Positions 5,599 to 40,864 of a DNA stretch of 45,187 nucleotides are shown here, piece by piece. The stretch is from Oscillospiraceae bacterium (GTDB lineage: Bacteria > Bacillota > Clostridia > Oscillospirales > Oscillospiraceae), in assembly GCA_017535865.1 (NCBI GenBank), contig JAFXTM010000049.1, positions 1-45,187 of the forward strand. The letters are read 5' to 3'. The translations under genes were made by a program, and so were the position numbers. The notes under the pieces are model-generated. The model was not told the origin of the DNA and made no database searches. It saw only the letters and a list, made by a program, of their open reading frames with translations. Within the stretch, counting starts at the first letter, position 1, and each line of letters begins with the position of its first letter.

Positions 5599-6156
5599 TT
5601 GGACGATCGACAGATCATCGCGCTCTTCAACGCGCGCTCGGAGCAGGCGATCGCGGAGCTGGAGAAAAAATACGGCGGCGCTATCCGGAAGACGGCGGGG
5701 AACATACTCGCCGACCGGCAGGATGTGGAGGAATGCGTAAACGATACCTATCTCGGCGTCTGGAATACGATCCCGCCCCAGGAGCCGGATCCCCTCTTCA
5801 GCTACGTCTGCCGCATCGCCCGCAACCAGGCCGTCAAGCGTTGCCACCGTGAGACGGCGCAGAAACGGAACCGGCAGTACGACCTGGCGCTGGACGAGCT
5901 GGCGGAGTGCATCCCCTCCACGGTCGACGTGGAGATGGAGCACGATGCCCGGGAGCTCGCGGACGCGGTCAGCCGCTTTCTGGCCTCACTCCGCTACGAG
6001 GATCGCTTCTGCTTCCTGCGGCGCTATTTCTACGCCGATGCCGTGTCGGACATCGCCGCGCAGCTGCGCTGGAGCAGCCACCGCGTCTCGGTCCGTCTCA
6101 GCCGTGTGCGGGAAAAACTGCATCACACTTTGAAGGAGGAGGGTTTGCTGGAATGA
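5599..6156 (+). CDS. ECF-like sigma-70 family sigma factor (module 1)
   Basis: 185 residues from the TTG at 5599. Region 2 covers about residues 15-85 (NILADRQDVEECVNDTYLGVWN is the classic ECF stretch) and region 4 about 125-178 (helix-turn-helix near IAAQLRWSSHRVSVRLSRV). It would direct RNA polymerase to a dedicated promoter. A GTG at 5590 is also in frame, but TTG gives exactly the 185 residues and MDD-type N-terminus of the three paralogues, keeps the leader-box distance (35 versus 36), and leaves room for GGAAGTGAGG as ribosome site. The stop overlaps the next start by ATGA, so the pair is translationally coupled. The family is clear; the regulon is unknown. Confidence 0.9.
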   Translation: MDDRQIIALFNARSEQAIAELEKKYGGAIRKTAGNILADRQDVEECVNDTYLGVWNTIPPQEPDPLFSYVCRIARNQAVKRCHRETAQKRNRQYDLALDELAECIPSTVDVEMEHDARELADAVSRFLASLRYEDRFCFLRRYFYADAVSDIAAQLRWSSHRVSVRLSRVREKLHHTLKEEGLLE

Positions 6157-7016
6157 AACGGGAAAACCTGTCGGAGATCCTCGGCCTGCTCGATGAGCGG
6201 CTCATCGCCGAGGCGCGCGTGTATGATCCGTCCGCCGGCGGCCGCTCCCCGGAAAGGATCCGGCCGATGAAGAAAAAGCGCATTGTCACCCTCGCGCTGG
6301 CGGCGGCCCTGCTGCTGTCGCTCAGCATCGCGGCCTACGCCGCCTACAACGCTGTCGGCACGCCGCAGGCCGCGGAAAAGATCGCCCTGGAGCAGATCGA
6401 GCGCTGGAAGGAGCTGGGGCTTCTCTCCCCCGGCTTTGCGCTCGCGGACAAAGCCTACGATATCCGCGAGAGCCCGGAGCATGTCGGGAGCGACTACTGG
6501 TTCGGGCGGATCTTCACGCACAGCTACAACCTGAAATTCCGCCGCGATCTCGAAAACGACAGGCGCTGCAGCGCCTTCCTGCGCGTCGACACGATGAGCG
6601 GCAAGATCACGGAGGCGAGCCTCGACGCGCAGGCGGAGGCAGGTCGGGAGCCGGTGTCCGAGATCCGCGGGACGGATGAGAACGGGGCGGAGAAGAGCTG
6701 GTACTACTACGATAACTACGAGGACATTTTCCCCGCCGACATGACCGTGGACCGCTTCTGCTCGCTCCTCGCGCAGTACTGGGGCTTTGGCGGCTACACG
6801 ATCGCCGATACCGACGATACGGAATACTATCACGAGCACTGGGAGGCCGTCGACGGCTCGACGCTGCTGCGGGACCTGGCCTCCATCAACCCGAACTACT
6901 ATCTCACCGTCTTCTTCGACGGCGATCAGACCGGCGTCCCCATGTACATCCAGCTGCATTCCTTCCCGGGCGGCTATGTGAATCTCATGCTCGGGACGAA
7001 CCACGGCATCGGCTAA
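6153..7016 (+). CDS. Membrane-anchored partner of sigma factor 1, putative anti-sigma factor
   Basis: 287 residues; the start overlaps the sigma stop by 4 bases. A cytoplasmic head of about 38 residues carries ILGLLDERLIAEA, then SPERIRPMKKKRI and one membrane helix (about 43-63, LALAAALLLSLSIAAYAAY). The remaining roughly 220 residues are outside and rich in Tyr, Asp and Trp (for example KSWYYYDNYED); I do not recognise a named domain. The head and anchor match the three other sigma partners in this window, while the outer domain does not. Position and topology suggest an anti-sigma factor that senses an envelope signal; this is inference, and the head is shorter than a normal anti-sigma domain. 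Confidence 0.7.
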   Translation: MKRENLSEILGLLDERLIAEARVYDPSAGGRSPERIRPMKKKRIVTLALAAALLLSLSIAAYAAYNAVGTPQAAEKIALEQIERWKELGLLSPGFALADKAYDIRESPEHVGSDYWFGRIFTHSYNLKFRRDLENDRRCSAFLRVDTMSGKITEASLDAQAEAGREPVSEIRGTDENGAEKSWYYYDNYEDIFPADMTVDRFCSLLAQYWGFGGYTIADTDDTEYYHEHWEAVDGSTLLRDLASINPNYYLTVFFDGDQTGVPMYIQLHSFPGGYVNLMLGTNHGIG

Positions 7017-7029
7017 GCCCCTGTCGAAC

Positions 7030-7070
7030 AAGCGCCGCGGAGCTTTTGCTCTGCGGCGCTTGTCAATTTT
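7030..7070 (+). terminator. Terminator after sigma module 1
   Basis: A 14-bp stem (7030-7043 with 7048-7061, one G-U type mismatch) has a TTTT loop and is followed by TTGTCAATTTT. The stem core GCCGCGGAGC resembles that of the terminator at 4597-4625. It lies between convergent genes and may also end ruvX transcription. Confidence 0.75.
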
Positions 7071-7076
7071 ATCCGT

Positions 7077-7484
7077 TCACAGACTCCCGAGGTAGCCCTC
7101 AAGGATCAGGCTCGCCGCCACGGCGTCCACGCTGCGGCGGTGCTGCTTCTCCTTTTTCCCGTTGGCGTGCAGGATGGCGTGCGCCTCGATGCTGCTGCGC
7201 CGTTCATCCCACAGGATGACCGGCAGGCCCGTATCCCGCAGCAGCAGCTCCCGGAACGCACGGCTCTTCTCCGCGCGCGGTCCCTCGCTGCCGTCCATGT
7301 TTTTCGGCAGGCCCAGCACCAGCGTTCCCACCTCGCGCGCTTTCGCTTCCTCCGCGATGCGGGCCGAGGCGCGCTCCATATCCCACTCCTGCATCGTCCA
7401 GGCCTCTCCGCAGAGCAGGCCAAGCGGGTCGGACACAGCCAGCCCGATGCGCCGGTCGCCGTAATCGATCGCCATAACTCTCAT
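7077..7484 (-). CDS. ruvX: Putative pre-16S rRNA nuclease / Holliday junction resolvase-like YqgF
   Basis: 135 residues, the usual family length. An RNase-H-like fold is shown by VMAIDYGDRRIGLAVSD at the N-terminus (metal-binding Asp), LVLGLPKNMDGSEGPRA in the middle and LWDERRSS plus SVDAVAASLIL near the end. The family processes the 16S rRNA 5' end. The ATG at 7482-7484 is preferred over a longer frame because GAGGTG lies seven bases upstream. It starts 10 bases after the folC stop and its ribosome site overlaps that stop, so the two are one transcription unit. Confidence 0.92.
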   Translation of the reverse strand: MRVMAIDYGDRRIGLAVSDPLGLLCGEAWTMQEWDMERASARIAEEAKAREVGTLVLGLPKNMDGSEGPRAEKSRAFRELLLRDTGLPVILWDERRSSIEAHAILHANGKKEKQHRRSVDAVAASLILEGYLGSL

Positions 7485-8822: not shown

Positions 8823-8824
8823 GC

Positions 8825-10265: not shown

Positions 10266-10850
10266 ATGCCGCCGAAAAGCAAGATCACACGGGACATGAT
10301 CGTAGACGCGGCCGTGAAAGTCGCCCGTGAAACGGGGGCGGAAGCGGTCAATGCGAGGACCGTGGCGCAGACGCTGCATTGCTCCACGCAGCCGGTCATG
10401 TACCATTTTTCCACAATGGAAGAACTGAAGCGGGCGGCCTACTCCCAAGCGGACCGGTTTCATACGGACTATCTGATGCACAGCTCCGGCAAAATCAATC
10501 CTCTTCTGGAAATCGGCCTGCATTATATCCGCTTTGCGATCGAAGAGCCGCATCTGTTCCGTTTTCTGTTTCAGTCCGGATACGCGAAGGAAAGCAATCT
10601 GTCGGAGATGATCGCCTCCGAAGAGCTGGCTCCGGTCCTTTCTGCCATGCAGGAGGGCTTGAAAATGGATCCGGACAAGACCCGGAAAGTGTTTTTGACC
10701 GTCGCCCTGTTTGCCCACGGCTATGCAAGCATCATCGCCAACAACGCCTTGGAATTTGACGAACGTACGGTCGCCGCCCATTTGGAGCGCGCGTTCAACG
10801 GCGCGGTGCTCGCCGTCAGGCAGGAGGAAAACGATGAAAAAACTGTATGA
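10266..10850 (+). CDS. TetR/AcrR family transcriptional regulator
   Basis: 194 residues. The N-terminal helix-turn-helix covers about 8-55 (ITRDMIVDAAVKVARETGAE, then ARTVAQTLHCSTQPVMYHFS), with the family tyrosine-histidine-phenylalanine. The C-terminal ligand domain is roughly 60-185. GGAGGTGA precedes the ATG. Its stop lies 17 bases inside the following CPBP gene, so the two form one operon; the likely target is its own promoter with the inverted repeats at 10217-10248. The ligand is unknown. Confidence 0.92.
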   Translation: MPPKSKITRDMIVDAAVKVARETGAEAVNARTVAQTLHCSTQPVMYHFSTMEELKRAAYSQADRFHTDYLMHSSGKINPLLEIGLHYIRFAIEEPHLFRFLFQSGYAKESNLSEMIASEELAPVLSAMQEGLKMDPDKTRKVFLTVALFAHGYASIIANNALEFDERTVAAHLERAFNGAVLAVRQEENDEKTV

Positions 10851-11592
10851 AAAAAGCGAGATCCTGTTTGCGCTCTTCTGGATCGTGCTTTACACGGTCT
10901 GTATGGGAAATCTGCGCAATCTCGGGGACGACAGTCCGTATATGACGGTCGGTCTGATTGTGATCTCCGTTTCGATGCTCCTGTTCGTTTGGAGAAACGG
11001 ACTGCTGGAGAAATACGGTTTGTCCGGCTGGGCCGGGAACAGCAAGGCCATGCTGTGGTTTCTCCCGCTTTGGATCATCACGACCCTCAACCTCTGGGGC
11101 GGCATCACACCGCGCTTTCCGATGCCGGGGCAGCTCTTCGTTGTCGTGTCGATGGCTTTTGTCGGCTTCGCCGAGGAGCTGATCTTCCGGGGCTTCCTGT
11201 TCAAAGCCATGCTGAAGAGCGGCAGCGTCAAGACGGCCGTGATCGTCTCCTCCGTCACCTTTGGTCTTGGGCACATTTTGAATTTGTTTACCGGACACGA
11301 GCTGGCGGAAACACTCTTGCAGGTCGTCTTTGCCGTCGCCTATGGCTTTCTTGTCACGATGGTTTTTTACAAGAGCGGCAGCCTGCTCCCCTGCATCCTG
11401 TCTCACAGCCTGTTTGATGTGTTTGCTCAATATGCGTCGAGCGACGCCTCTCCTCTGCTGAACTGGGTCGGTCACGGCGTTATCATCATCCTGACGCTCC
11501 TGTATTGTCTGTACTTGACAAAGCGCGTGGAGACGCCCGCCGTCAACCGATCCGACACGCCGGAAGAGGCTTCGTCCTGTCCGCAGGAATAG
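10834..11592 (+). CDS. CPBP family intramembrane metalloprotease
   Basis: 252 residues from the ATG at 10834, which has AGGAGG at 10822-10827, inside the TetR gene. About seven hydrophobic helices. The protease (CAAX/ABI) motifs are EELIFRG (EExxxR), FGLGHI and HSLFDVF, so the catalytic set is complete. Bacterial members act in prenyl-protein-like processing, bacteriocin immunity or resistance. The TetR linkage suggests it is induced by a small molecule; the substrate is unknown. It is a different paralogue from the CPBP gene at 21854. Confidence 0.88.
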   Translation: MKKLYEKSEILFALFWIVLYTVCMGNLRNLGDDSPYMTVGLIVISVSMLLFVWRNGLLEKYGLSGWAGNSKAMLWFLPLWIITTLNLWGGITPRFPMPGQLFVVVSMAFVGFAEELIFRGFLFKAMLKSGSVKTAVIVSSVTFGLGHILNLFTGHELAETLLQVVFAVAYGFLVTMVFYKSGSLLPCILSHSLFDVFAQYASSDASPLLNWVGHGVIIILTLLYCLYLTKRVETPAVNRSDTPEEASSCPQE

Positions 11593-14713: not shown

Positions 14714-14746
14714 ACCGTGCTTTTGTTATTTCTCTCGATGTTTGGC

Positions 14747-14760
14747 GTGTATAGGGGTGA
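14747..14760 (+). promoter_or_regulatory. Shared leader box of sigma module 2
   Basis: GTGTATAGGGGTGA lies 28 bases before the start at 14775. It matches the boxes of modules 1, 3 and 4 (core TATA-GGGTGA) but is closer to the start than theirs. Confidence 0.4.
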
Positions 14761-14774: not shown

Positions 14775-15332
14775 ATGGACGATGCCGCGATCGTCGCGCT
14801 GTTCTGGGCGCGTTCGGAGGACGCGATCCGGGAGGCGGAAAAGCGCTACGGGAGCTATTGCGCCGCCATTGCCGGGCGCATCCTGAGCGACGCCGAGGAT
14901 ACGCGCGAATGTCTCAATGATCTCTGGCTCGCCGCCTGGCGCTCCATTCCGCCCCAGCGCCCCGAAAACCTGCGCTGTTATCTGGGGAAGCTGATCCGAA
15001 ACCTTGCCATTTCCCTCCGGCGGAGGACACACCGTCAGAAGCGAGGCGGTGGGGAGACCGATCTGGTACTGGAAGAGCTGGGTGAATGCGTATCCGGAGG
15101 GACGGAGCCCGAACAAGTGCTGGAGGCGCAGGTGCTGTGCGAGGCGCTGGATCGCTGGCTGGCCGCGCTGCCTCTGCGGGACCGGCAGCTTTTTGTGAAC
15201 CGTTATTTTTATGTGCGCAGCGTGCCGGAGCTCGCTGAAACGGCGGGCACGAGCCGCGCGAATGTCAACAGCACGCTGTACCGGTTGAGGAAAAAGCTGC
15301 GGGTGTATCTGGAGAAGGAGGGCCTGGTATGA
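14775..15332 (+). CDS. ECF-like sigma-70 family sigma factor (module 2)
   Basis: 185 residues from the ATG at 14775 (AAGGAGAGGG upstream). Region 2 shows GRILSDAEDTRECLNDLWLAAW, with a Leu-for-Val change relative to the paralogues; region 4 shows LPLRDRQLFVNRYFYVRSV and a helix-turn-helix at ELAETAGTSRANVNSTLYRL. It is the most divergent of the four sigma factors here. It lacks the NTAQKRNSRYD linker, having THRQKRGGGETDL instead. The stop overlaps the next start by ATGA. Confidence 0.9.
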   Translation: MDDAAIVALFWARSEDAIREAEKRYGSYCAAIAGRILSDAEDTRECLNDLWLAAWRSIPPQRPENLRCYLGKLIRNLAISLRRRTHRQKRGGGETDLVLEELGECVSGGTEPEQVLEAQVLCEALDRWLAALPLRDRQLFVNRYFYVRSVPELAETAGTSRANVNSTLYRLRKKLRVYLEKEGLV

Positions 15333-16957
15333 AAGTGCAAGCTTTGTTTGACGCTCTCGGCGGGATCGACGATCGCTTTCTCGCAGAGGCGGAGGCGCTG
15401 CGGCCCGTCCCGCATAAAAAACGCTGGCTGCGCGCGGCGCTGATCGCCGCGGTGCTCGCCGGGCTTTTCAGCGTCACGGCCTATGCGGCTGGCTGGTTTG
15501 GCCTGGGCGCCCGGGTCACGCCCTCCCGGGACCTGAGTCTGAGCGGCATACTGGACTCCGAGGAGGCGCGTGCCTACACGGATTGGACGGCATACCGGGA
15601 CACATACGTCGACGCGTTTCTTGCCTCGCAGGGTGACGCCCCCTTTGATATGGCCTGGACGTCGGAGAGCCCGGAGCTCAATGGCGCCGCCGTGCTGTAC
15701 GGCGCGCCGGACCGGAGCAGCGCCGTCCGACTGCTGGATATCGCCGCGCAGCACGGTCTGACGCTCCACACGCGCGCGCTGCGTTTCACGAGCGGAGCAA
15801 ACTTCCTCCGAGCGGCGGGCATCCCTCGCTTTGCCGGAGAAGAAACAGAATATCGCGGTTTGGTCTATGAGGATGGGAGCTATACGGCCGAGCTCACGAT
15901 CCCGCTCGGAGATGGAGACGCGATTTTGACGCTCGAACGCCATTTTACCGGGAAAATGCAGCCGACCGGACTGGAACGTACATTGGTCCAGCCTGAAAAC
16001 TTCCTTGAGTGGAGTTATCAAAACGCCCATGGGCAGGTGCTCTCACTGGCGCTGTCTTCTGTCGATGAGCAGCTCTTTGCCCTCGGGAATGAGCGTGTTC
16101 CGCGCGACGGCAATCGCCTGTTTCCCTTCTATATATTCTATTGTCAGAAAGGGCAGTATCTAACCGCCGCAGGCAATCTGCGTCTCAGTTCGCTCCAGGG
16201 TTTCGACGAGGCGACGGCCCGAGCGCAGCTCGAAACCATCGCGGACGCCATCGACTTCGGAGCCGCTGCCGCGGCCGACTGTGACACCGCGTTCTTCCTG
16301 GACTTCACGCCCGTCTCTGCGCCCGGAGACGGCAAGCCCGATCTGGCCGCCTTTCTGGCGCAGCCGGAGGCACAGGCCACTCTGGCGATGCAGAGGGAGC
16401 TCTCGGAAGCCATCGGGACGGAGATTGGCCGCGGTATGGAGTTTGCCGTCCACGGCGGCGGTGATCTGGACGTCCTGCGAAACGGCGACCCGCTCTCCGG
16501 CTCCAAAATCGACTCGCTGCTGGAAGCCGCGGCCGCGCAGTATCATCTGCGGTATCCGAGCCAATGCCGCTCTTTCCGGGGCAGCGGCCTGAGCGAAAAT
16601 GAAATCCTTGCCGCCGCCGGGCAAGGCGATTTTGGCGGTGAGATCCGGTATCTGCTGGATAACGGCGTTTTCTGGGGATTTGATACAGACCGCAACGAGT
16701 TTCTCTATCTGCCCCACGGCGGTTTCTTGGCGGGCTCGCTTCTCTATGCGCTGCCCGAGGCGGCAGAGGGTGAAGGCTGGTTTTATAAGAATCAAAACGG
16801 AGACACGGTCTGGCTGTGCCGGGCAACAGACGAGCCGCGCGTCGGCTATCTCCTCTATGAGAGCGAGGGCGGCTGGTTCCTGCTGCTCGTCAACGGCCCG
16901 GAACTCTGGCAGCTGGAGGAAGCCGCCGATCGGCTCCGGCTGAGCGAACTGAACTGA
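15329..16957 (+). CDS. Membrane-anchored partner of sigma factor 2 with large ectodomain, putative anti-sigma factor
   Basis: 542 residues, by far the largest of the four partners. The head (1-32) carries ALGGIDDRFLAEAEALRP, the shared motif. The basic stretch is HKKRWLRA, followed by one membrane helix (about 34-54, LIAAVLAGLFSVTAYAAGWF). About 485 residues would lie outside. The ectodomain begins with VTPSRDLSLSG and contains no family I recognise. The partner shares head layout but not the MKKKRI junction of the other three. The start overlaps the sigma stop. The anti-sigma role is inferred from coupling and topology only. Confidence 0.68.
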   Translation: MKVQALFDALGGIDDRFLAEAEALRPVPHKKRWLRAALIAAVLAGLFSVTAYAAGWFGLGARVTPSRDLSLSGILDSEEARAYTDWTAYRDTYVDAFLASQGDAPFDMAWTSESPELNGAAVLYGAPDRSSAVRLLDIAAQHGLTLHTRALRFTSGANFLRAAGIPRFAGEETEYRGLVYEDGSYTAELTIPLGDGDAILTLERHFTGKMQPTGLERTLVQPENFLEWSYQNAHGQVLSLALSSVDEQLFALGNERVPRDGNRLFPFYIFYCQKGQYLTAAGNLRLSSLQGFDEATARAQLETIADAIDFGAAAAADCDTAFFLDFTPVSAPGDGKPDLAAFLAQPEAQATLAMQRELSEAIGTEIGRGMEFAVHGGGDLDVLRNGDPLSGSKIDSLLEAAAAQYHLRYPSQCRSFRGSGLSENEILAAAGQGDFGGEIRYLLDNGVFWGFDTDRNEFLYLPHGGFLAGSLLYALPEAAEGEGWFYKNQNGDTVWLCRATDEPRVGYLLYESEGGWFLLLVNGPELWQLEEAADRLRLSELN

Positions 16958-16963: not shown

Positions 16964-17004
16964 CACAGGGGACGTGATGATCTCACGTCCCCTGTGCCTT
17001 TTCT
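16964..17004 (+). terminator. Terminator after sigma module 2
   Basis: A 14-bp perfect stem (cacaggggacgtga 16964-16977 with tcacgtcccctgtg 16983-16996) followed by CCTTTTCTGTTT. The opposite strand lacks a T-run, so pdxK termination here is less certain. Confidence 0.9.
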
Positions 17005-17012
17005 GTTTGCTT

Positions 17013-17846: not shown

Positions 17847-17885
17847 GGATGATCCCTCCAAAACGGATTGCGGGAAACTGTCGGC

Positions 17886-31865: not shown

Positions 31866-32462
31866 ATGATTACTGCTCAGGACATCCGTGAAAAAGCTTT
31901 CGACAAGGCCCGCGGCGGCGGTTATGACCCGGCGTCCGTCGACGAATTTCTGGAGGAGCTGGCCGACGAGGTCGCCGCTGCCCAGAAAGAGAACGCCGTT
32001 CTCAAGAGCAAAATGAAGGTCCTCGTCGACAAGATCGAGGAGTACCGCTCCAACGAGGAAGCGCTGAATCTGGCCCTCCTCTCCGCTCAGAAGCTGGCCG
32101 TCCAGATCGAAGCCGAGGCCCGTCAGCGCGCCAGCGCCACCATTGCCGAGGCGGAGGCAAAGGCCCAGGCCGTGATCGGCTCCATCGAAGAGGAGAGAGT
32201 CGCCAATGAGCAGCGTCTGGCCGATGCCAAGAAGGCCAAGAGCTCCTTTATCGCGGAGGCAAAGGCCATGATCCAGGCCCAGCTGGACAAGCTGAGCGCC
32301 ATTGACCTCGGCGAGCTCAGCGCCGAAGAGAGCGGCGAGCCGAGCAGCGAAAGCAGCGCCTCCCGCCCGGGGTCCGAGCCCTCCTTTGATTTCGGGTTTT
32401 CCGCGTTGAAGGATGCCACCGCTCCCAGCAAGCTGGAGAGCACCCAGACCTTCACGGTCTGA
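31866..32462 (+). CDS. divIVA: DivIVA family polar/septal protein
   Basis: 198 residues from the ATG at 31866, which has AAAGGTGG eight bases upstream. The N-terminal membrane-binding domain shows DIREKAFDKARGGGYDPASVDEFLEE-type spacing (residues 6-31). A long coiled coil covers about 35-150 (heptad-rich ENAVLKSKMKVLVDKIEE, then Ala/Glu-rich). The C-terminal 45 residues are Ser/Pro-rich. It recruits division and pole proteins at curved membrane. Confidence 0.93.
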   Translation: MITAQDIREKAFDKARGGGYDPASVDEFLEELADEVAAAQKENAVLKSKMKVLVDKIEEYRSNEEALNLALLSAQKLAVQIEAEARQRASATIAEAEAKAQAVIGSIEEERVANEQRLADAKKAKSSFIAEAKAMIQAQLDKLSAIDLGELSAEESGEPSSESSASRPGSEPSFDFGFSALKDATAPSKLESTQTFTV

Positions 32463-32483
32463 TTCTGTCTTTCCATTGCCAGA

Positions 32484-32518
32484 CGGGGCGGGCGCAGCAC
32501 GCGCGCGCCCCGCTGTTT
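32484..32518 (+). terminator. Possible weak terminator between divIVA and ileS
   Basis: A GC-rich hairpin (32484-32494 with 32503-32512, one bulge) is followed only by CTGTTTGG. It may be an attenuating hairpin or a weak terminator. The 115-bp gap is too short for a T-box leader. Confidence 0.35.
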
Positions 32519-32577
32519 GGTATTGACCGCGGAATATTTTCCGTATTTTCATCCATAACAACAACAGGAGAACGCCG

Positions 32578-35376
32578 ATGTCTAAGGACTTTAACGCCAC
32601 GCTGAACCTTCCGAAAACCGATTTTCCCATGCGGGCCGGCCTGCCCAAACGCGAGCCGGATATGCTCCGGCACTGGGAAGAACTGGACGTCTATCACGAG
32701 CATCTGAAAAAGAGCGAAGGCCTGCCCCTTTTCAATCTTCACGACGGCCCTCCCTTCTCCAACGGTGATATTCACATGGGCCACGCGCTCAACAAGGCCC
32801 TGAAAGACTTCATCAACCGCAGCTACATGATGCGCGGCTATCACGTGCCCTATATCCCCGGCTGGGATAACCACGGCATGCCGATCGAGAGCGCCATCAT
32901 CAAGGAGCAGAAGCTCAACCACAAGGCCATGAGCGTGGCGGATTTCCGCTCCGCCTGCGAGGCCTACGCCAACAAGTACATCGACCGGCAGCGCGTCGGC
33001 TTCAAGCGGCTCGGCGTCATCGGCGACTGGGAGCATCCCTACACCACGATGAACAAGGGCTTCGAGGCGGACGAAGTGCGCATCTTCGGTAAGATGTACC
33101 GCAACGGCCATATCTACAAGGGCTTCAAGCCCGTCTATTGGTGCTATCACGACGAGACCGCCCTGGCCGAGGCGGAGATCGAGTACCACGATGATCCGGT
33201 CGATTCCGTGTATGTGAAGTTCCCCATGCACGACGACCAAGGCAAGCTGAGCCATCTGGACAAGGCAAAGCTCTTTTTCCTGATCTGGACCACCACGACC
33301 TGGACGCTGCCGGGCAACATTGGCATCGCGCTGCATCCCGACCTGGATTACGCCATCGTGAAGGCCCCCAACGGCGAACTGTATATCCTTGCCGAGGCTC
33401 TGGTCGATACGGTCATGGAAAAGGGCGGCGTCACCGATTACGAGATCGTGGAGACCCATCCCGGCACCTTCTTTGAGTACATGCTGGCCGACCACCCCTT
33501 CCTGCCGAAGACCAGCCTGCTGATGCTCGCGGACTACGTCACGACCGACTCCGGCACCGGCTGCGTGCATACCGCGCCCGGCTTCGGCGACGTCGACTAT
33601 CAGACCTGCAAGCAATACGGCACGGAAATGGTGGTCCCCGTCGACGATCAGGGCCGCCACACCGAATACGCCGGCAAGTACGCCGGTCTGATCGTGGAAA
33701 TGTCCAACCCGATCATCGCCGCCGACATGAAAGAGAGCGGCATGCTCTTCGCCGAAGAGCGTCTGATGCACAGCTATCCGCATTGCTGGCGCTGCAAGCA
33801 GCCCATCATCTTCCGCGCCACGCCGCAGTGGTTCTGCTCGGTCGACTCCTTCAAGGAGGAGGCCATCGCCGCCTGCGAGGGCGTGCGCTGGCTGCCCACC
33901 TGGGGCAAGGAACGCATGGGCGCCATGATCCGCGAGCGCAGCGACTGGTGCATCTCCCGTCAGCGCCGCTGGGGTCTGCCGATTCCTGTGTTCTACTGCG
34001 ACGACTGCGGCAAGCCCGTCTGCACCGATGAGAGCATCGAGGCTGTCGCCTCCCTCTTTGAAAAAGAGGGCAGCAACGCCTGGTTTGACCGCCCCGCGGC
34101 CGAGATCCTGCCCGAGGGCTTCACCTGCCCGCACTGCGGCGGCAAGCACTTCACGCAGGAGACCAACACGCTTGACGGCTGGTTCGACTCCGGCTCCACC
34201 CATTTTGCCGCCATGAAGCGCGACCAGGGCTTCTGGCCCGCCACGATGTACATCGAGGGCGGCGACCAGTACCGCGGCTGGTTCCAGTCCTCCCTGCTGG
34301 TGGCTGTCGGTGCGATGGGCATGGGCGCCCCCTACAAGGAGTGCCTGACCCACGGCTGGACGGTGGACGGCGAGGGCAAGGCCATGCACAAGTCCCTCGG
34401 CAACGGCGTGGATCCCGCCGAACTCTTTGCGGAATTCGGCGCCGATCTTGTCCGGCTCTGGGCCGGTTCCGCCGACTACCATGTGGATGTGCGCTGCTCC
34501 AAGGAGATCTTCAAGCAGCTCAGCCAGAACTATCTGAAGTTCCGCAACACCGCCCGCTACTGCCTCGGCAACCTCGACGGCTTCGACGCCGATCGCCTGG
34601 TCGCACCGGCGGATATGCTGGCGCTGGACCGCTGGGTCATCACCAAGCTCAACGCGCTGATCGAGAAGGTCGAGGCCGCTTACCGGGACTATGAGTTCCA
34701 CGTGGTCTCCCATCTGGTCAACGATTTCTGCGTGGTCGAGCTCTCCAGCTTCTACCTCGACATCATCAAGGACCGCCTCTACTGCGAGGAGCGCGACGGG
34801 CTCAAGCGCCGCAGCGCGCAGACCGCTCTGTTCCTGATCCTGGATACGCTGACCAAGCTTTTTGCGCCTATCCTCGCCTTCACCTGCGACGAGATCTGGC
34901 TGGCCATGCCGCACCGTGAGGGCGACGACGTCCGCAACGTCGTGCTCAACCAGATGAACAAGCCCTTTGCGGAATACGCCCTCTCCCCCGAGGAGATGGC
35001 CCGCTGGGACGAGCTGATCGCGCTGCGCAACGACGTCAACGGCGTACTCGAAAACGCCCGTGCCGCCAAGCGCATCGGCAAGCCGCTCGAAGCGGCCGTC
35101 ACCCTGCGCCCGACGGACTCCGACGCCCGCGCGCTGGCCGATCGCCTGTCCGACATGGATCTTGAGGAGCTCTTCATCGTCTCCCGCTGCCTGATCGCTG
35201 AGGACGAGGCGCCTCTCGAGGCCGCCGCGGCCGCCCAGGCCAGCCAGGCTCCCGGGCTGCAGATCTCCGTCGTCGAGGCGCCCGGCGTGAAGTGCCCGCG
35301 CTGCTGGAAGCATTCCACCGAGGCCGATCCCGAGACCGGGCTCTGCCCGCGCTGCGCCGCCGTCCTGGCCGGCTGA
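32578..35376 (+). CDS. ileS: Isoleucyl-tRNA synthetase
   Basis: 932 residues. HIGH motif HMGH (66-69) in SNGDIHMGHALNK; the KMSKS loop reads AMHKS (602-606), a variant where the first Lys is Ala and the central Ser is His. The CP1 editing domain is about 190-390 (IWTTTTWTLPGN, DSGTGCVHTAPGFG). The C-terminal zinc site is CPRCWKHS and CPRCAAVL. Type, length and motif order fit bacterial IleRS. AGGAG precedes the ATG. Confidence 0.96.
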   Translation: MSKDFNATLNLPKTDFPMRAGLPKREPDMLRHWEELDVYHEHLKKSEGLPLFNLHDGPPFSNGDIHMGHALNKALKDFINRSYMMRGYHVPYIPGWDNHGMPIESAIIKEQKLNHKAMSVADFRSACEAYANKYIDRQRVGFKRLGVIGDWEHPYTTMNKGFEADEVRIFGKMYRNGHIYKGFKPVYWCYHDETALAEAEIEYHDDPVDSVYVKFPMHDDQGKLSHLDKAKLFFLIWTTTTWTLPGNIGIALHPDLDYAIVKAPNGELYILAEALVDTVMEKGGVTDYEIVETHPGTFFEYMLADHPFLPKTSLLMLADYVTTDSGTGCVHTAPGFGDVDYQTCKQYGTEMVVPVDDQGRHTEYAGKYAGLIVEMSNPIIAADMKESGMLFAEERLMHSYPHCWRCKQPIIFRATPQWFCSVDSFKEEAIAACEGVRWLPTWGKERMGAMIRERSDWCISRQRRWGLPIPVFYCDDCGKPVCTDESIEAVASLFEKEGSNAWFDRPAAEILPEGFTCPHCGGKHFTQETNTLDGWFDSGSTHFAAMKRDQGFWPATMYIEGGDQYRGWFQSSLLVAVGAMGMGAPYKECLTHGWTVDGEGKAMHKSLGNGVDPAELFAEFGADLVRLWAGSADYHVDVRCSKEIFKQLSQNYLKFRNTARYCLGNLDGFDADRLVAPADMLALDRWVITKLNALIEKVEAAYRDYEFHVVSHLVNDFCVVELSSFYLDIIKDRLYCEERDGLKRRSAQTALFLILDTLTKLFAPILAFTCDEIWLAMPHREGDDVRNVVLNQMNKPFAEYALSPEEMARWDELIALRNDVNGVLENARAAKRIGKPLEAAVTLRPTDSDARALADRLSDMDLEELFIVSRCLIAEDEAPLEAAAAAQASQAPGLQISVVEAPGVKCPRCWKHSTEADPETGLCPRCAAVLAG

Positions 35377-35471
35377 GTTCATATCCCCCGCTTTGCGTTT
35401 ATCCATATTCCCGCAAACCCCAAGAAAACTCAAGCCGTCGGATCGCTCCGCGGCAGATAGGAGAGGACACT

Positions 35472-36581
35472 ATGCTGTATGCCATTTTTGCCGTGTTGGT
35501 CATCATTCTTGACCAGGGCGTAAAGTACTGGGTCTCCAACGCCATCCACATGGAGTCGGCCGGCGAGAAGTTCATTCCGGACATCCTCAGTATCGTCAAC
35601 GTCCATAACGACGGAGCCGCGTTCAGTTTTCTGGCCGGCAGCAACGCCCGTATTTACTTTATCATCCTGACCGGTGTTTTCACCGTCCTGGTCATCATAG
35701 CGCTGGCGACGAAATTCATCTCCGGCCCGCTGGCCCGGTGGAGCATCGTGATGGTGGCGGCCGGCGGCATCTCCAACTGCATCGACCGCGTGATCTACGG
35801 CTATGTGCAGGATATGTTCAAGTGCGAATTCGTGAACTTCCCGGTGTTCAACGTGGCGGATATCTTTATCACCGTCTTTGCGCTGCTCTTTGTGCTCGCC
35901 ATCATCTTTGAGCGGGATCGCCGCCGCGACTTCCGTTTTGATGACGACGAGGAGTTCGGCGAGGAAGAAGACGAAGACGAAGAGGAAGAGGAAGCCCCGC
36001 GCCGCCTGAGCCGCAAGGAAAAACGCGCTCAGCGCCGTGCCGAGCCCGAGGAGGAAGACGAGGAAGAGGAGGATGAGGAAGAGCCTCCCCGCCGCCCGAG
36101 CCGCAAGGAGAAGCGCGCCCAGCGCCGCGTCGAGCCCGAGGAGGAAGACGAGGAAGAGGAAGAACCCCGCCGCCCGAGCCGCAAGGAGAAGCGCGCCCAG
36201 CGCCGTGCCGAACGCGAGGAGGCGCTCGCTCAGGAAGAGGAGGAAGAGCCTCCCGCCCGCTCCCGCCGTGCCGCCGCACAGAAGCCCGCCGCTCCCGCAG
36301 AGTCCGGCCGCAAGGCCCGGACCTCCAAGTACGACGCGGAGTATGAGCAGTTCAAAGCCCGCCGCGCCGCTGCGCAGAAGCAGGCAGCCGCGCAGAAGCA
36401 GGCCGAGGTCAAGCCCGTGGCGGAGCCCGCGCCTGTCGTCGAACCCGCGCCGGCGGTCAAACCCGAGCCCGTGGTCAAGCCCGAGTCGAAGCCCGCCGCT
36501 CCCGCCGTCGAGCCCAAGCCTTTCAGCGTCAGCTCCGACACGGAATTCTCGCTGGACGACATTCTGGCCGAGTTCAAGTAA
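35472..36581 (+). CDS. lspA: Lipoprotein signal peptidase LspA with long charged C-terminal extension
   Basis: 369 residues, more than twice the usual 150-170. Residues 1-150 are a normal LspA: LVIILDQGVKYWV, VHNDGAAFSFL, and catalytic Asp105 (NCIDRV) and Asp130 (FNVADIF) in four membrane helices. From about 150 on is a low-complexity cytoplasmic tail: acidic runs alternate with three copies of SRKEKRAQRR, then an Ala/Gln/Pro/Val-rich part and a terminal FSLDDILAEFK. The tail is read in one continuous frame, with no frameshift visible. LspA removes lipoprotein signals after lipidation; the flavoprotein at 1187 is one likely substrate. The tail's role is unknown. Confidence 0.93.
   Translation: MLYAIFAVLVIILDQGVKYWVSNAIHMESAGEKFIPDILSIVNVHNDGAAFSFLAGSNARIYFIILTGVFTVLVIIALATKFISGPLARWSIVMVAAGGISNCIDRVIYGYVQDMFKCEFVNFPVFNVADIFITVFALLFVLAIIFERDRRRDFRFDDDEEFGEEEDEDEEEEEAPRRLSRKEKRAQRRAEPEEEDEEEEDEEEPPRRPSRKEKRAQRRVEPEEEDEEEEEPRRPSRKEKRAQRRAEREEALAQEEEEEPPARSRRAAAQKPAAPAESGRKARTSKYDAEYEQFKARRAAAQKQAAAQKQAEVKPVAEPAPVVEPAPAVKPEPVVKPESKPAAPAVEPKPFSVSSDTEFSLDDILAEFK
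35997..36220 (+). repeat. Three imperfect tandem repeats in the lspA tail
   Basis: Units start near 35997, 36087 and 36165 (periods about 90 and 78 bp). Each encodes RR-(L/P)-SRKEKRAQRR followed by a Glu/Asp run. The third unit is truncated after the basic part. In-frame length changes would alter the tail without disturbing LspA. Confidence 0.85.
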
Positions 36582-36584
36582 ACA

Positions 36585-37505
36585 ATGGATGAATCCCTGC
36601 GGATCATCACAGCCAAGGAGAGCGGCGAGCGGATCGACGCTCTCCTTGCGCGCTCTGTGGAGGACCTGAGCCGCAGCGCCGCCCAGCACCTGATCGAGGA
36701 GGGGCGCGTCACACTCGATGGGCTGCCGCTGCGGAAAAACTACAAGGTCCGCGCCGGGGACGAGTTCGAGCTGCTGCTGCCGCCGCCCGCCGACGTGCCG
36801 CTCCTGCCGCAGGAGATGGCGCTGGACGTCGTGTTTGAGGATGCGGACGTGATCGTCGTCAACAAGCCCCGCGGGCTCGTGGTCCATCCCGCGCCCGGGC
36901 ATCCGGACGGGACGCTGGTTAACGCGCTGCTCTGGCACTGCGGAGACTCGCTCTCCGGCATCGGCGGGGAGAAGCGGCCCGGTATCGTCCACCGCATCGA
37001 CAAGGACACCTCTGGCCTGCTGATCGTCGCCAAAAACGATCTGGCCCATCAGCGTCTCTCGGCGCAGCTCGCGGACCGGAGTCTCTCCCGGGTGTATGAG
37101 GCCATTGTGCGCGGCGGCTTCCGGGAGGACGAGGGCACGGTGGACCGGCCCATCGGCCGCCATCCGACCGACCGCAAACGGATGGCCGTGCTCGCGAGCG
37201 GCCGAAACGCCGTGACGCACTGGCAGGTCCTGTGCCGCTACCGCGATCACACACATATCCGCTGTCAGCTTGAAACCGGCCGCACGCACCAGATCCGTGT
37301 CCATATGGCGAGCATCGGCCATCCCCTGCTGGGCGACGGAGCCTACGGGGCTCCCTCGCCGGAAAAGGGCCTGGCGGGTCAGTGCCTGCACGCGCGCTGT
37401 CTGAAGTTCGTCCACCCCCGCAGCGGCGAGGCGATCCGTCTGGAGACGGAGCTGCCGCCGTATTTTCTCGAAGTACTCAGCAAGCTTGGGAATCCCATCG
37501 AATAG
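36585..37505 (+). CDS. RluA-family 23S rRNA pseudouridine synthase (RluD/YlyB-like)
   Basis: 306 residues. An S4 RNA-binding domain (about 13-70, ERIDALLARSVEDLSRS) is followed by the synthase domain with catalytic Asp139 in HRIDKDTSGLL and the late ETGRTHQIRVHM. It isomerises uridines in 23S rRNA. It begins three bases after the lspA stop, the lspA-ylyB order known from Bacillus. Confidence 0.95.
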   Translation: MDESLRIITAKESGERIDALLARSVEDLSRSAAQHLIEEGRVTLDGLPLRKNYKVRAGDEFELLLPPPADVPLLPQEMALDVVFEDADVIVVNKPRGLVVHPAPGHPDGTLVNALLWHCGDSLSGIGGEKRPGIVHRIDKDTSGLLIVAKNDLAHQRLSAQLADRSLSRVYEAIVRGGFREDEGTVDRPIGRHPTDRKRMAVLASGRNAVTHWQVLCRYRDHTHIRCQLETGRTHQIRVHMASIGHPLLGDGAYGAPSPEKGLAGQCLHARCLKFVHPRSGEAIRLETELPPYFLEVLSKLGNPIE

Positions 37506-37514
37506 GAGGCTGTT

Positions 37515-37706
37515 ATGGATATCAAGAAAATCGCCGTATTCGTTGTCGTTCTGCTCTTCATCCTGGCCGTGATCTCGTTGGTCTTCCGTCTGCTGGCGGG
37601 CCTCGCGAGCGGCGCGTTCAATCTCGTGCTCGGCGCGATCGTCGTGATCGGTCTGATCGTCATCGTGACCTGGATGTTCGCCTACGCGAAAAAGAAACGG
37701 AAATAA
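37515..37706 (+). CDS. Small two-helix membrane protein
   Basis: 63 residues: MDIKKIAVFVVVLLFILAVI begins the first helix (about 6-30), a second is about 34-56, and the tail is basic (AYAKKKRK). AGGAGG lies seven bases before the ATG, and it starts nine bases after the previous stop, so it is very likely a real co-transcribed gene. No family recognised. Confidence 0.75.
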   Translation: MDIKKIAVFVVVLLFILAVISLVFRLLAGLASGAFNLVLGAIVVIGLIVIVTWMFAYAKKKRK

Positions 37707-37717
37707 GGCGGAACGGG

Positions 37718-37763
37718 AAAAGACCACAGCTTTGGAAAACTCCGAAGCTGTGGTCTTTTTTTG
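37718..37763. terminator. Bidirectional terminator between the division cluster and sigma module 3
   Basis: A 15-bp stem (37718-37732 with 37745-37759) has a T-run on the plus side and TCTTTTCCC on the minus side. It can end both convergent units. Confidence 0.9.
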
Positions 37764-37781: not shown

Positions 37782-38561
37782 TCAGCCGGCCGCGCGGATG
37801 AGTTCCGCCGCCATTTCAGTCAGGGTCTCGAGCGAACCAGCGCCCGCCGCCATGTCCATAAGCAAATAGTTCACGCCCTCCAGCGTGAAGGCGGCAGAGA
37901 CGATCTCGCGTTCTTCGATCTTGTCCGAACCGAAGGAGATATAGAAGTGTCCGGCCGCCTCGCGGGCAAGATCGTCCGCTGTTTTCTCATAGTTCTCGGG
38001 GACCAGCTTGTATTGGTCGCGGTTCAGATTCACCGTCACGCCGTCGACGGTCCTCTGCTCACTGGGCGCGGGCGCTTTGCCGCCGCCTTCCAGATCCAGC
38101 ACGGGGCTGAGATCGAGGTACAGCTCCGGCGCGCCATTCCTGGAATAGTTCACATGGACGCCGTAGTATTCCTTCAGCACCTCGAGGTCCTCTCCGAACA
38201 CAGCCTGCCCGTTCACGCTGAGGCCGGCGAAGGCGTAGCCGTTGGAAAAGCGCTCGGGTACGGTCACCGGGTAGCCGACGGTCTTTTCGACTCGGGAAAG
38301 CTCCGAAAGACTGGTGTATTCCGCCGTCTGCGGCATGGAGTAAGTCCCGACGGAACGGGGGATCCCGGAGAGCGCGTAAGCCGCGGCTCCCAGCAGGAGG
38401 ATCAGCGCCGCCGCCAGGGCGAAGGTGAGGATGCGTTTCTTTTTCATGTGTGAAATCCTTTCCGGGAAGGCCTGTGCAGACCCGGGAGAAAAGACCAGGG
38501 TGTCGCGTATATGGCGCTCTGCCAGCTCGTTCAGCGCCAGGGAAAGGCTCTCTTGCGTCAT
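37782..38561 (-). CDS. Membrane-anchored partner of sigma factor 3, putative anti-sigma factor
   Basis: 259 residues. The head (1-38) carries ALNELAERHIRDT, a degenerate form of the shared LDDR motif, then PERISHMKKKRI. The membrane helix (about 44-63, FALAAALILLLGAAAYA) is identical to that of partner 4 because of a 93-bp DNA repeat. The outer 190 residues include SVGTYSMPQTAEYTSLSELS and VGYPVTVPERFSNGYAF, a pattern similar to DUF4367-type domains seen in sigma-factor partners. The start overlaps the sigma stop (ATGA). Regulator role inferred. Confidence 0.7.
   Translation of the reverse strand: MTQESLSLALNELAERHIRDTLVFSPGSAQAFPERISHMKKKRILTFALAAALILLLGAAAYALSGIPRSVGTYSMPQTAEYTSLSELSRVEKTVGYPVTVPERFSNGYAFAGLSVNGQAVFGEDLEVLKEYYGVHVNYSRNGAPELYLDLSPVLDLEGGGKAPAPSEQRTVDGVTVNLNRDQYKLVPENYEKTADDLAREAAGHFYISFGSDKIEEREIVSAAFTLEGVNYLLMDMAAGAGSLETLTEMAAELIRAAG
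38374..38466 (-). repeat. 93-bp perfect direct repeat, copy 1
   Basis: Identical to 40123-40215. It encodes the peptide from the membrane head to the end of the helix (core SPERISHMKKKRILTFALA in part) of the partner proteins 3 and 4. Confidence 0.95.
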
Positions 38562-39115
38562 ACAGGCACTCCCTCCTTCAGCAGTTGTTTTCTGAGTTTT
38601 TCTTTGACCCGGTGGAGACGGACAGCCGCCGCGCCATAGCTCATCCCCGCCATCCCGGCAGCCTCGGCCAGCGAGTCGGCGAACCAGTACCGGCGCATGA
38701 AGAGGAATTTGTCCTCATAGGAGAGCGTGTCCAGAAAACGGTCGATCGTCCGGGCAAGTTCCCTTGCGTCAATGCGGTCTTCCACCGAGCGGCTGTCCGG
38801 GATGCACTCCGCGAGTTCGTCCAGCGCGAGGTCGTAGCGGCTGTTCCGTTTCTGCGCTGTGTTGGCGTGGTATCGCTTCGTCGCAAGATTGCGCGCGATC
38901 CTGCAGACATAGCTCCGCAGCGGAGCGGGGCGCTGCGGCGGGATGCTGTTCCAGGCGCCGAGCCACGTGTCGTTGACGCACTCCTTCGCGTCCTCCGCGT
39001 CGCCCAGGATATTGAACGCGACGCGCTGTACCGCGCTCCCGTGTTTTTCCGCCAGCTCGACGATCGCCTGTTCCGAACGTTCAAAGAACAGGTCCAGGAT
39101 CTCCTCGTCGCTCAT
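38558..39115 (-). CDS. ECF-like sigma-70 family sigma factor (module 3)
   Basis: 185 residues, ATG at 39113-39115 with AGAGGTGA upstream. Region 2: NILGDAEDAKECVNDTWLGAWN and IPPQRPAPLRSYVCRIARNL; region 4: LSYEDKFLFMRRYWFADSL with the helix-turn-helix EAAGMAGMSYGAAAVRLHRV. The linker NTAQKRNSRYDLALDELAEC matches module 4 closely, showing a recent duplication. The stop overlaps the partner start. Confidence 0.92.
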   Translation of the reverse strand: MSDEEILDLFFERSEQAIVELAEKHGSAVQRVAFNILGDAEDAKECVNDTWLGAWNSIPPQRPAPLRSYVCRIARNLATKRYHANTAQKRNSRYDLALDELAECIPDSRSVEDRIDARELARTIDRFLDTLSYEDKFLFMRRYWFADSLAEAAGMAGMSYGAAAVRLHRVKEKLRKQLLKEGVPV

Positions 39116-39136
39116 CTCCGCTCACCTCTTTCCGGG

Positions 39137-39151
39137 TCCACCCATATACTA
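39137..39151 (-). promoter_or_regulatory. Shared leader box of sigma module 3
   Basis: On the minus strand TAGTATATGGGTGGA, 36 bases before the ATG. The same distance is found in module 4. Confidence 0.5.
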
Positions 39152-39194
39152 CGGTTTCAGAAAGGTTTTTTACCGCCGCTTACGATATTATATC

Positions 39195-39230
39195 AAAAAG
39201 CCGGAAGAATCTTCTCAGGATTCTCCCGGC
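39195..39230 (-). terminator. Terminator between sigma modules 4 and 3
   Basis: A 12-bp stem (39200-39211 with 39219-39230, one G-U) is followed on the minus strand by TTTTT. The two tandem modules are therefore separate transcription units. Confidence 0.85.
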
Positions 39231-39245
39231 CTGCCGGATTGCCTG

Positions 39246-40310
39246 TTATTTTCTTTCCCAGAGGACCAGGTCGCCGAGGACGATCCGCTGCACATCGTCG
39301 ATGTCGATCGCGCCGCCCCAGCCGCAGGTCAGATGGACGGCCCCGTCTTTATACGGCGTCGTCAGCGCGCCGCCGGTGGAAAAAGCCGAGCCGTCGGAGA
39401 AAACGATCTCTGCCTCGATGCAGATCTTATCCTCCAGCAGGCTCCAGGGCTCATACGCAGCCCAGTCCGCCTCCGGGGTGTGGAAGGAGGCCGCGCCTTC
39501 GTAGCTCACTTTCCAGACGGCGCTGAAGGGCGTCAGCTCCAGACCGATGATCTCGATATCCTTATCCAGCTCCTCGTCGTGATAGACGGCGCGGCCGAAA
39601 TCGAAGACCCGGCTCTGCTCCCCGGTCAGCGCAAAGGGGACCGGTCCGAAGCTCCGGGGCTCCCCATCCTCCGGGAGCATCTGCACGGCGAGGGGAACGG
39701 CGTCGGTCCCCAGCTCCGTCATGGCCCGCTCCACCATGTTCACGTCCAGAAAGCCCTGCAGCGTCAGGGTCTGCGTCTCTTTGTCGTAGGCGTGTTCCAT
39801 CACCGCGGCGCGGATCTCGTCCGTGCCCGAAAGGGACAGCTCCACCGGGAGCTGCGGCGCGGCGAAGCCGCCGATCTCCGTCCCCTCGATGCACCAGACA
39901 AAGCGCGTTTTGTCCGGGAAGGCGGCCGCTTCCTCCTCCGACACGGGGGAGATGTTGACATAGACGCGCTGCTCCCGCCCGTCGTTGACGGCGGAGAGCA
40001 GGACGAGGCCCTGCCCCTGTCCGTCGGGAACGGCGTATTCCACATAGCTGTCGACCTTGTTTTCCTCGATCCCGAAATCCGCTTTCAGCTCCTGCTGCCG
40101 GACGGTGTGCACGCTCCAAGAGGCGTAAGCCGCGGCTCCCAGCAGGAGGATCAGCGCCGCCGCCAGGGCGAAGGTGAGGATGCGTTTCTTTTTCATGTGT
40201 GAAATCCTTTCCGGGCTTTCCTGCACCGCCACGGGAAGATAGGCTTCCGCTTCGCTGACGTACCGGTCGTCCAACCCGTTCAGCATACGCGTGATCGTTT
40301 CCCGCTTCAT
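39246..40310 (-). CDS. Membrane-anchored partner of sigma factor 4, putative anti-sigma factor
   Basis: 354 residues. The head (1-38) has MLNGLDDRYVSEAEAYLPV, the clearest form of the shared motif, then SPERISHMKKKRI and one helix (about 45-62). The outer 290 residues (VSEEEAAAFPDKTRFVWCIEG, VEYAVPDGQGQGLV, KDGAVHLTCGWGG) resemble the beta-rich DUF4179-like ectodomains linked to sigma factors, but I cannot assign the family firmly. The start overlaps the sigma stop by four bases. Confidence 0.7.
   Translation of the reverse strand: MKRETITRMLNGLDDRYVSEAEAYLPVAVQESPERISHMKKKRILTFALAAALILLLGAAAYASWSVHTVRQQELKADFGIEENKVDSYVEYAVPDGQGQGLVLLSAVNDGREQRVYVNISPVSEEEAAAFPDKTRFVWCIEGTEIGGFAAPQLPVELSLSGTDEIRAAVMEHAYDKETQTLTLQGFLDVNMVERAMTELGTDAVPLAVQMLPEDGEPRSFGPVPFALTGEQSRVFDFGRAVYHDEELDKDIEIIGLELTPFSAVWKVSYEGAASFHTPEADWAAYEPWSLLEDKICIEAEIVFSDGSAFSTGGALTTPYKDGAVHLTCGWGGAIDIDDVQRIVLGDLVLWERK
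40123..40215 (-). repeat. 93-bp perfect direct repeat, copy 2
   Basis: Identical to 38374-38466. The sequence on both sides diverges quickly, so the repeat is an island of identity within older paralogues. Confidence 0.95.
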
Positions 40311-40864
40311 ACAAGAAATCCCTCCTTCTCAAGATAGCGTTTGAGTTTTTTTCGGATACGGAAAAGGCGGACTGTCACGCTGTTGGCGGTGGAATCCGCC
40401 ATCCGGGCAATGTCCGGCAGCGGATCGCCATACCAGTAGCGGCGCGTAAAGAGAAAGCGGTCCGCATAGCTCAGCGTGGCCATAAAGCCGTTGATCGCGG
40501 CGGCGAGTTCTTTCGCTTCGTATGCCGCCTCCACGCTGCCGCCGTCGGACAGGATCGCTTCCAACTCATCCAGCGCGGCGTCATAGCGGCTGTTTCGCTT
40601 CTGCGCCGTGTTGGCGTGATACTTCATCGTCGCAAGATTGCGCGCGATCTTGCAGACGAAGGTCCGCAGCGGCGACGGCCGGTGCGGCGGGACAGCGTTC
40701 CAGACCCCGAGCCAGGTATCGTTCACACACTCCTCGGCGTCCTGCTCGTTCCCCAGGATGTTCCGCGCCACTGCGGTCACGGCGCTGCCGTGTTTTTTGG
40801 CAAGCTCTTCGATCGCCTGTTCCGAGCGCTCAAAAAACAGGTCGATGATCTCCGTGTCTGTCAC
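40307..40864 (-). CDS. ECF-like sigma-70 family sigma factor (module 4)
   Basis: 185 residues from the GTG at 40862-40864 with GAGGTGA seven bases upstream. Region 2: NILGNEQDAEECVNDTWLGVWN; region 4: LSYADRFLFTRRYWYGDPL and helix-turn-helix IARMADSTANSVTVRLFRI. Closest relative is module 3. The stop overlaps the partner start. Confidence 0.92.
   Translation of the reverse strand: MTDTEIIDLFFERSEQAIEELAKKHGSAVTAVARNILGNEQDAEECVNDTWLGVWNAVPPHRPSPLRTFVCKIARNLATMKYHANTAQKRNSRYDAALDELEAILSDGGSVEAAYEAKELAAAINGFMATLSYADRFLFTRRYWYGDPLPDIARMADSTANSVTVRLFRIRKKLKRYLEKEGFLV

Follow-up and report, generated by a model that had tools for sequence, protein, structure and literature searches.

Background

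The described systems closest to the genes treated here pair a sigma factor with a membrane-bound anti-sigma factor. The nearest functional parallel is SigI/RsgI, which according to PMC6056542 is present in Clostridium thermocellum and its relatives as 8–16 paralogous, autoregulated pairs per genome. Nearest by architecture are RsiV and BAS1627 (ECF30), for which PMC6066255 describes a common DUF4179 helix region and an unrelated remainder. The class II pair CnrH/CnrY has a very short cytoplasmic anti-sigma segment with two helices before the membrane, and a survey of class I anti-sigma factors set aside domains of under 50 aa (both as given in PMC7406223). In the present study we analyse four modules, M1 to M4, each composed of a gene for an extracytoplasmic function (ECF) sigma factor and an overlapping gene for a partner protein with one predicted transmembrane (TM) helix. 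They lie on a stretch of 45,187 nucleotides from an Oscillospiraceae bacterium (contig JAFXTM010000049.1 of assembly GCA_017535865.1), hereafter the window, which is contig C91 of a metagenome-assembled genome (MAG) of 2.48 Mb in 118 contigs that is 80.5% complete. Comparison with relatives establishes, at the level of sequence, that sigma factor and partner are paired, that the sigma factor co-varies with the cytoplasmic start of the partner, and that the outer domain has changed recurrently with a boundary at the TM helix.

Like SigI/RsgI (PMC6056542, as far as described there), the family combines a kept inner part and TM helix with differing outer sensors in paralogous pairs of sigma factors and putative anti-sigma factors. 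SigI has sigma2 and SigI-C without sigma4, whereas the family sigma factors give a match to region 2 and a weaker one to region 4; RsgI has a cytoplasmic domain of its own and a self-cleaving periplasmic domain, and its known outer parts are largely carbohydrate-binding. Neither the RsgI family in the partners nor SigI in the sigma factors was found among the Pfam and NCBIfam matches listed. The combination of an ECF sigma factor with a putative one-TM anti-sigma factor is shared with SigV/RsiV and BAS1627, but copy number and swapping appear far higher in the present family. DUF4179 and DUF3298, the marks of RsiV and BAS1627, had no Pfam match in the four window partners; among 120 other members searched (drawn from 204 complete partners, 162 after removal of redundancy), DUF4179 was found at E ≤ 0.01 in five, the best just below the cut-off, and DUF3298 in one, above the cut-off. 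Among the chains listed, 3fbq, the outer domain of BAS1627, was the only one to align along the whole modelled outer domain of M4. Two short helices, perhaps comparable to those with which CnrY-like factors wrap sigma2 and sigma4, are predicted before the membrane (H3-11 and H15-22/23 in the models of two partners, M1 and M4, at a pLDDT of about 50). The solved relatives of the family sigma factor include SigW and CnrH.

An earlier note on this DNA, made from the sequence alone, had put the modules forward as the best candidate in the window for an undescribed system. That the system is undescribed holds in part: ECF sigma factors with one-helix anti-sigma factors and diverse outer domains are known (RsiV/BAS1627, SigI/RsgI), but the family itself, its unmodelled cytoplasmic domain and its rate of exchange were not seen described. 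No description of the family, or of serpin anti-sigma factors, was seen among the open-access papers listed in literature searches, which do not include the main ECF classification, and a prior grouping of the sigma factors is possible.

Sigma factor–partner modules in the window and in related genomes

The four modules comprise the following genes, with the outer domains assigned to the ecto clusters described below:

5599..6156, plus strand: M1 ECF sigma factor, 185 aa, TTG start
6153..7016, plus strand: M1 partner, putative anti-sigma factor, 287 aa, with cytoplasmic helices, one TM helix and an outer domain (ecto cluster 3)
14775..15332, plus strand: M2 ECF sigma factor, 185 aa, ATG start, divergent lineage
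15329..16957, plus strand: M2 partner, putative anti-sigma factor, 542 aa, outer domain of about 485 aa (ecto cluster 1)
38558..39115, minus strand: M3 ECF sigma factor, 185 aa, ATG start
37782..38561, minus strand: M3 partner, putative anti-sigma factor, 259 aa (ecto cluster 4)
40307..40864, minus strand: M4 ECF sigma factor, 185 aa, GTG start
39246..40310, minus strand: M4 partner, putative anti-sigma factor, 354 aa (ecto cluster 0)

The earlier note had placed 185-residue sigma genes at 5599 (+), 14775 (+), 39115 (−) and 40864 (−), each running into the gene of a one-helix membrane protein. All four open reading frames (ORFs) were found at these positions, the ATGA overlap of sigma stop and partner start is present in all four modules, and each partner has one predicted helix, followed by an outer part of about 220 (M1), 485 (M2), 193 (M3) or 288 (M4) residues, as claimed. 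The outer domain of M1 shows a weak resemblance to YpeB/YpmB. The same note had described the sigma factors as alike and of equal length, which is correct for the length and for M1, M3 and M4, which form one group; M2 represents a more distant lineage in a separate sigma group, its sigma factor being 42% identical to that of M1. All four sigma factors match TIGR02937 (sigma70-ECF) and Sigma70_r2 above the cut-off. Sigma70_r4_2 is matched in all four as well, above the cut-off in M2 and just short of it in the other three.

The genome of the window encodes nine family sigma factors rather than four, and all nine are followed by an overlapping partner gene (eight overlaps of 4 nt, one of 7 nt). 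For a wider comparison, 223 distinct sigma factors were collected from the window and 200 loci, and 214 were kept; the nine left out scored under 140 bits (three edge fragments and six more distant sigma factors). The loci were drawn from the strongest matches (30 loci; the best 80 of 581; 80 regions), so that the diversity of the family is undersampled and the genus of the window oversampled. The earlier note had proposed to look for an overlapping partner behind each sigma factor of this type in the genome and its relatives: a TM partner is present for 209 of the 214, and for the remaining five it was not found or the contig ends. The overlap measures 4 nt in 173 of these partners and 7 nt in 23, with another spacing in 13. 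Since the TIGR02937 cut-off is passed by all four window sigma factors and so many family partners overlap by exactly 4 nt, the module layout is not due to chance.

The partners have a median of 41 residues before the TM helix, with a cytoplasmic N-terminal motif that approximates L..A[LI][GN].[IL]DD..[IV].EA, and the complete ones (n = 204) range from 86 to 762 aa. The shortest, at L125:793-1619 (sigma factor s124), is little more than switch and helix, the outer domain being almost absent; the partner of s143, the closest sigma relative of s124 (93% DNA identity), is of full length and belongs to ecto cluster 9.

Co-variation of the inner segment and exchange of the outer domain

The N-terminal helix region of the partner (N-helix) follows the sigma factor. 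Where sigma factors are at least 65% identical, N-helix identity is 55% with different outer domains (510 pairs) and 62% with a shared outer domain (179 pairs). Where sigma factors are less than 50% identical, homologous outer domains are accompanied by an N-helix identity of 22% (482 pairs), as compared with a background of 24% (16282 pairs). Within genomes, sigma and N-helix identity correlate with r = 0.631 (292 pairs, 11 genomes); upon re-dealing the partners within genomes, r reached at most 0.209, and none of 300 permutations was as high as the observed value. That N-helix identity tracks the sigma factor and not the outer domain makes binding between the N-terminal segment and the sigma factor the most likely explanation.

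Single-linkage clustering of the outer domains of 208 modules gave 65 clusters, one partner whose outer part is shorter than 60 residues having been excluded, and profile comparison of the ten largest joins cluster 1 with 5 and cluster 2 with 7. On a FastTree tree of the sigma factors (208 rows), 54 changes of outer type are counted among the 132 modules of the ten clusters, the minimum being 9 and the mean after shuffling 92.2. Merging the remotely related clusters (eight states) leaves 51 changes, against a shuffled mean of 85.3. Outer types 5 and 8 show little or no clustering on the tree, and the well-supported branches alone force between 2 and 11 changes for single outer types. The claim of the earlier note that this is an expandable family, in which the switch is kept and the sensor swapped, is thus well supported by comparative sequence tests.

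The break between kept and exchanged parts lies at the helix. Among the 510 pairs with close sigma factors and different outer domains, mean partner identity is 0.55 at 5 residues past the TM centre, 0.14 at 10 and 0.06 at 15. One case is that of s144 and s156, with sigma factors 97% identical and N-helices 100% identical, the partners of which (291 and 373 aa) belong to different outer clusters. Six close pairs were read at the DNA level. In the five with different outer types, a stretch of high identity starts about 50 nt ahead of the sigma gene, covers this gene and the partner N-terminus, and ends at the helix; beyond either end identity is lost, some pairs having a further partly similar 50 nt upstream. 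In the sixth, of the same outer type, identity continues past the helix, yet the flanks are unrelated. The finding of unrelated flanks is based on these six pairs, as a wider comparison of flanks by local score was discarded for its untrustworthy, too low null threshold.

In the window itself, M3 and M4 share an identical tract at this place:

38374..38466, minus strand: 93-nt tract in the M3 partner gene, about residues 33–63 (juxtamembrane and TM)
40123..40215, minus strand: identical 93-nt tract in the M4 partner gene

This run lies within a region that is otherwise 66.7% identical, is followed by unrelated outer domains, and compares with a simulated maximum of 34 nt (3002 draws). Because it is the sole such tract among the same-genome pairs with different outer domains, we read it as the mark of one recent exchange or conversion at the helix; as MAG sequence it needs confirmation by long reads. 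General concerted evolution of the helix DNA within genomes was considered and found unsupported, as identities in the same and in other genomes were 0.46/0.44, 0.53/0.48 and 0.59/0.58 in three sigma-identity bins (different outer domains).

Predicted promoters

A two-block motif search was performed on the regions upstream of the sigma genes, with mononucleotide-shuffled controls (two for each group, run from fewer starts than the actual searches). For sigma group 0, which includes M1, M3 and M4, the motif TGtAA.ATt-N8-.ATCc.tAGt was obtained with a log-likelihood of 380, compared to 99 and 100 for shuffled sequences, and for group 1 the motif TG.AACct-N13/14-cGT.TATA with 219, compared to 74 and 78; kinship of the upstream sequences raises such scores. 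The group 1 motif is close to the consensus TGAAAC/CGTATA. Groups 2, 3, 4 and 5 gave further variants, with a smaller margin in the small groups (group 5: 57 versus 36 and 41). In the window the following sites were predicted:

5539..5567, plus strand: predicted M1 promoter of the sigma group 0 type, in the motif training set, scoring above all five shuffled maxima
39148..39176, minus strand: predicted M3 promoter of the sigma group 0 type, in the motif training set, scoring above all five shuffled maxima
40897..40926, minus strand: possible M4 promoter, in the motif training set, score within the shuffled range
14724..14755, plus strand: possible M2 promoter with a -10 of the CGTGTATAG type, not exceeding the shuffled maximum in score

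The group 0 pattern, with three mismatches allowed, matched only M4's own promoter in the genome of the window, and a stricter version had no match in 36 genomes. The group 1 pattern matched once in the own genome, before the genome's own module on C64; over the 36 genomes it showed no clear excess relative to a reversed control, several of its matches preceding modules. Such matches were rejected as evidence for a regulon, although patterns this strict may miss one. Many members carry a palindrome (GAGAGCTCTC in group 1, TGAGGGACCTCA in group 3) downstream of the -10 and ahead of the ribosome site, which could represent an operator or a 5' hairpin.

Proposed mechanism and alternative explanations

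We propose, with a probability of about 0.78, that the family consists of autoregulated ECF sigma factors with membrane anti-sigma factors that are released by regulated proteolysis, and that it grows by sensor swap. Sigma factor and partner would be co-translated via the 4-nt overlap, the first 40 or so residues of the partner would keep the sigma factor inactive, and the outer domain would sense an extracellular cue. A first cut might then occur near the outer end of the helix, often at A-x-A, as by signal peptidase on RsiV, after which a site-2 protease would cut in the membrane and expose a near-invariant Ala-Ala as a ClpXP tag; degradation of the stub would set the sigma factor free. Expansion would proceed by module duplication and by recombination of the block of promoter, sigma gene, anti-sigma segment and helix onto unrelated outer domains, with the break in the helix or close to it. 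What we infer from the comparisons and from described systems is that the partners inhibit, that proteolysis frees the sigma factors, that the modules are autoregulated, that outside signals act on them and that the changes arose by recombination; the partners might sense the state of the envelope.

Of 209 partners, 205 have Ala-Ala in the TM helix, and in 109 the first Ala-Ala is followed by A-x-A at a distance of 11 residues. A-Y-A is found at the helix's outer end in each of the four window partners; in M2 it stands 11 residues after the second Ala-Ala. The first cut in RsiV is made by signal peptidase (as described in PMC6066255), for which A-x-A is given as the canonical site in PMC8844934, and for RsgI PMC12203970 describes XAA sites in the helix by which ClpXP recognises the stub that RseP leaves. 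It is because the Ala-Ala and A-x-A motifs parallel these signal peptidase and RseP/ClpXP steps that a three-step release like that of RsiV and RsgI is proposed. M50 protease genes gave three matches in the own genome, and M50 also has matches in all 14 control genomes.

Several observations weigh against this proposal. The four window partners matched no Pfam or NCBIfam family above the cut-off, anti-sigma domains included: in Pfam no such domain appeared at E ≤ 1, and the one NCBIfam 'antisigma' match (0.035, M4) was far below the cut-off. A-x-A occurs anywhere in the scanned stretch in 144 of 209 partners, with 93 expected by shuffling. Strict pattern searches in the own genome and 36 genomes found no regulon beyond the modules' own promoters. 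N-helix identity is somewhat higher in pairs that have the outer domain in common as well (0.62 versus 0.55 for sigma factors at least 65% identical, 0.86 versus 0.75 at 80% or more), and among distant sigma factors TM identity is 45% with homologous outer domains versus 31% without; the TM helix, being intermediate, therefore goes partly with each side, and the split between inner and outer parts is not perfectly clean. Only 53 of 205 inner branches of the sigma tree are well supported, which makes the exact number of changes soft. The M3/M4 identity is unique among 320 same-genome pairs with different outer domains and a sigma 5' DNA identity of 0.5–0.8. Finally, genomes of the same genus (g1) are fragmented into 40–310 contigs each, and chimeric assembly could mimic single swaps.

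This last point favours the explanation that a good part of the swap signal stems from mis-assembly of metagenome bins at repeated helix-coding DNA, as does the 93-nt identity in the window, a repeat of the type able to confuse assemblers. We consider it very unlikely, as helix DNA is at least 0.94 identical in only 2 of 8515 pairs of any outer class, both with different outer domains, which points to rare merging in assembly, and as the well-supported branches require 11 or more changes in outer type 0 alone. In a second explanation, sensor and switch do not recombine and outer domains diverge so fast after duplication of whole modules that all likeness is lost. Outer domains of the same type are indeed less conserved (0.30–0.48 past the helix) than the helix (up to 0.77), and some outer clusters are remotely related (1 with 5, 2 with 7). 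However, the same outer types recur on distant sigma factors with background N-helices across the sigma tree, the break at the helix is abrupt, and s144 and s156 differ in outer cluster with all but identical switches, so that we regard such divergence as quite unlikely.

It is also unlikely, in our opinion, that the partner serves the sigma factor as co-activator, chaperone or membrane tether rather than as inhibitor, with an enzymatic or binding role of its own for the outer domain. Gene overlap and co-variation demonstrate a functional link only, and serpin and beta-propeller outer domains may have activities of their own; but the layout, the short cytoplasmic region, the Ala-Ala in the TM helix and one RsiV-type outer domain resemble known anti-sigma factors.

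Outer-domain types and distribution of the family

In other members this switch is joined to outer domains of the serpin, PASTA, RsiV or beta-propeller type; in L102, an RsiV-type outer part (7.5e-49, below the equivalog cut-off) stands behind the family N-terminal motif. Serpin outer parts (ecto cluster 6), with an inhibitory-type hinge, occur in L082, L084, L088, L091, L103, L105, L110, L114 and L186, three of the nine having been checked singly in Pfam, and the partners that bear them span four different sigma groups. A serpin outer domain could possibly act as a protease-trap sensor.

As a more tentative proposal, for which we would put the odds somewhat below even, the promoter-to-TM block of gut Clostridia may be a portable switch that has been recombined repeatedly onto unrelated sensors, serpins included; an undescribed miniature anti-sigma domain would then turn almost any extracellular fold into a transcriptional receptor, with helix-coding DNA as the exchange point. 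One kept switch with dozens of exchanged outer domains would offer a way to read the extracellular sensors of uncultured gut Clostridia, any outer domain being combined with one tested switch and one promoter. The serpin, PASTA and RsiV-type outer domains suggest proteases, wall fragments and lysozyme as signals, and the family provides natural data on how sigma/anti-sigma specificity is kept through paralogue expansion.

Matches to the family sigma factor at E ≤ 1e-10 were found in 53 of 60 genomes (the own genome included), with 0 to 20 matches in each of 36 other genomes of the same genus, the weakest of which may be other ECF sigma factors. At E ≤ 1e-30, 34 of 196 genomes of the class have a match (again including the own genome), mostly with one to five copies. 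Among named loci, the best matches come from rumen and gut bins with the titles Ruminococcaceae, Oscillospiraceae or Clostridia; isolate-titled loci include [Ruminococcus] torques ATCC 27756, Roseburia faecis, Pseudoflavonifractor sp., P. capillosus and Clostridium vitabionis.

G170 and G226 (genus code g117, another genus), with 11 family sigma factors each, appear to represent a second expansion that took place independently. On G006:C106, 55.3–80.7 kb (L121, L122 and L018), six distinct family modules lie within about 25 kb, more densely than in the window. L109, titled Methanocorpusculum (an archaeon), has a module of clostridial type and is probably a mis-binned contig.

Genomic context in the window

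The modules are surrounded by housekeeping genes (IleRS, LspA, RluD, MutL, ParB, rubrerythrin). Three ORFs, at 35430-37727 (−), 32452-35433 (−) and 16974-17852 (+), were considered as downstream operon genes and ruled out by a codon-position GC of the spurious type, the first two also by Pfam matches (IleRS, LspA, RluD) on the opposite strand. The window further encodes two Rce1-like (CAAX/CPBP) membrane proteases, at 10711-11592 (+) and 21854-22564 (−); the site-1 protease PrsW is a member of the CAAX/CPBP superfamily.

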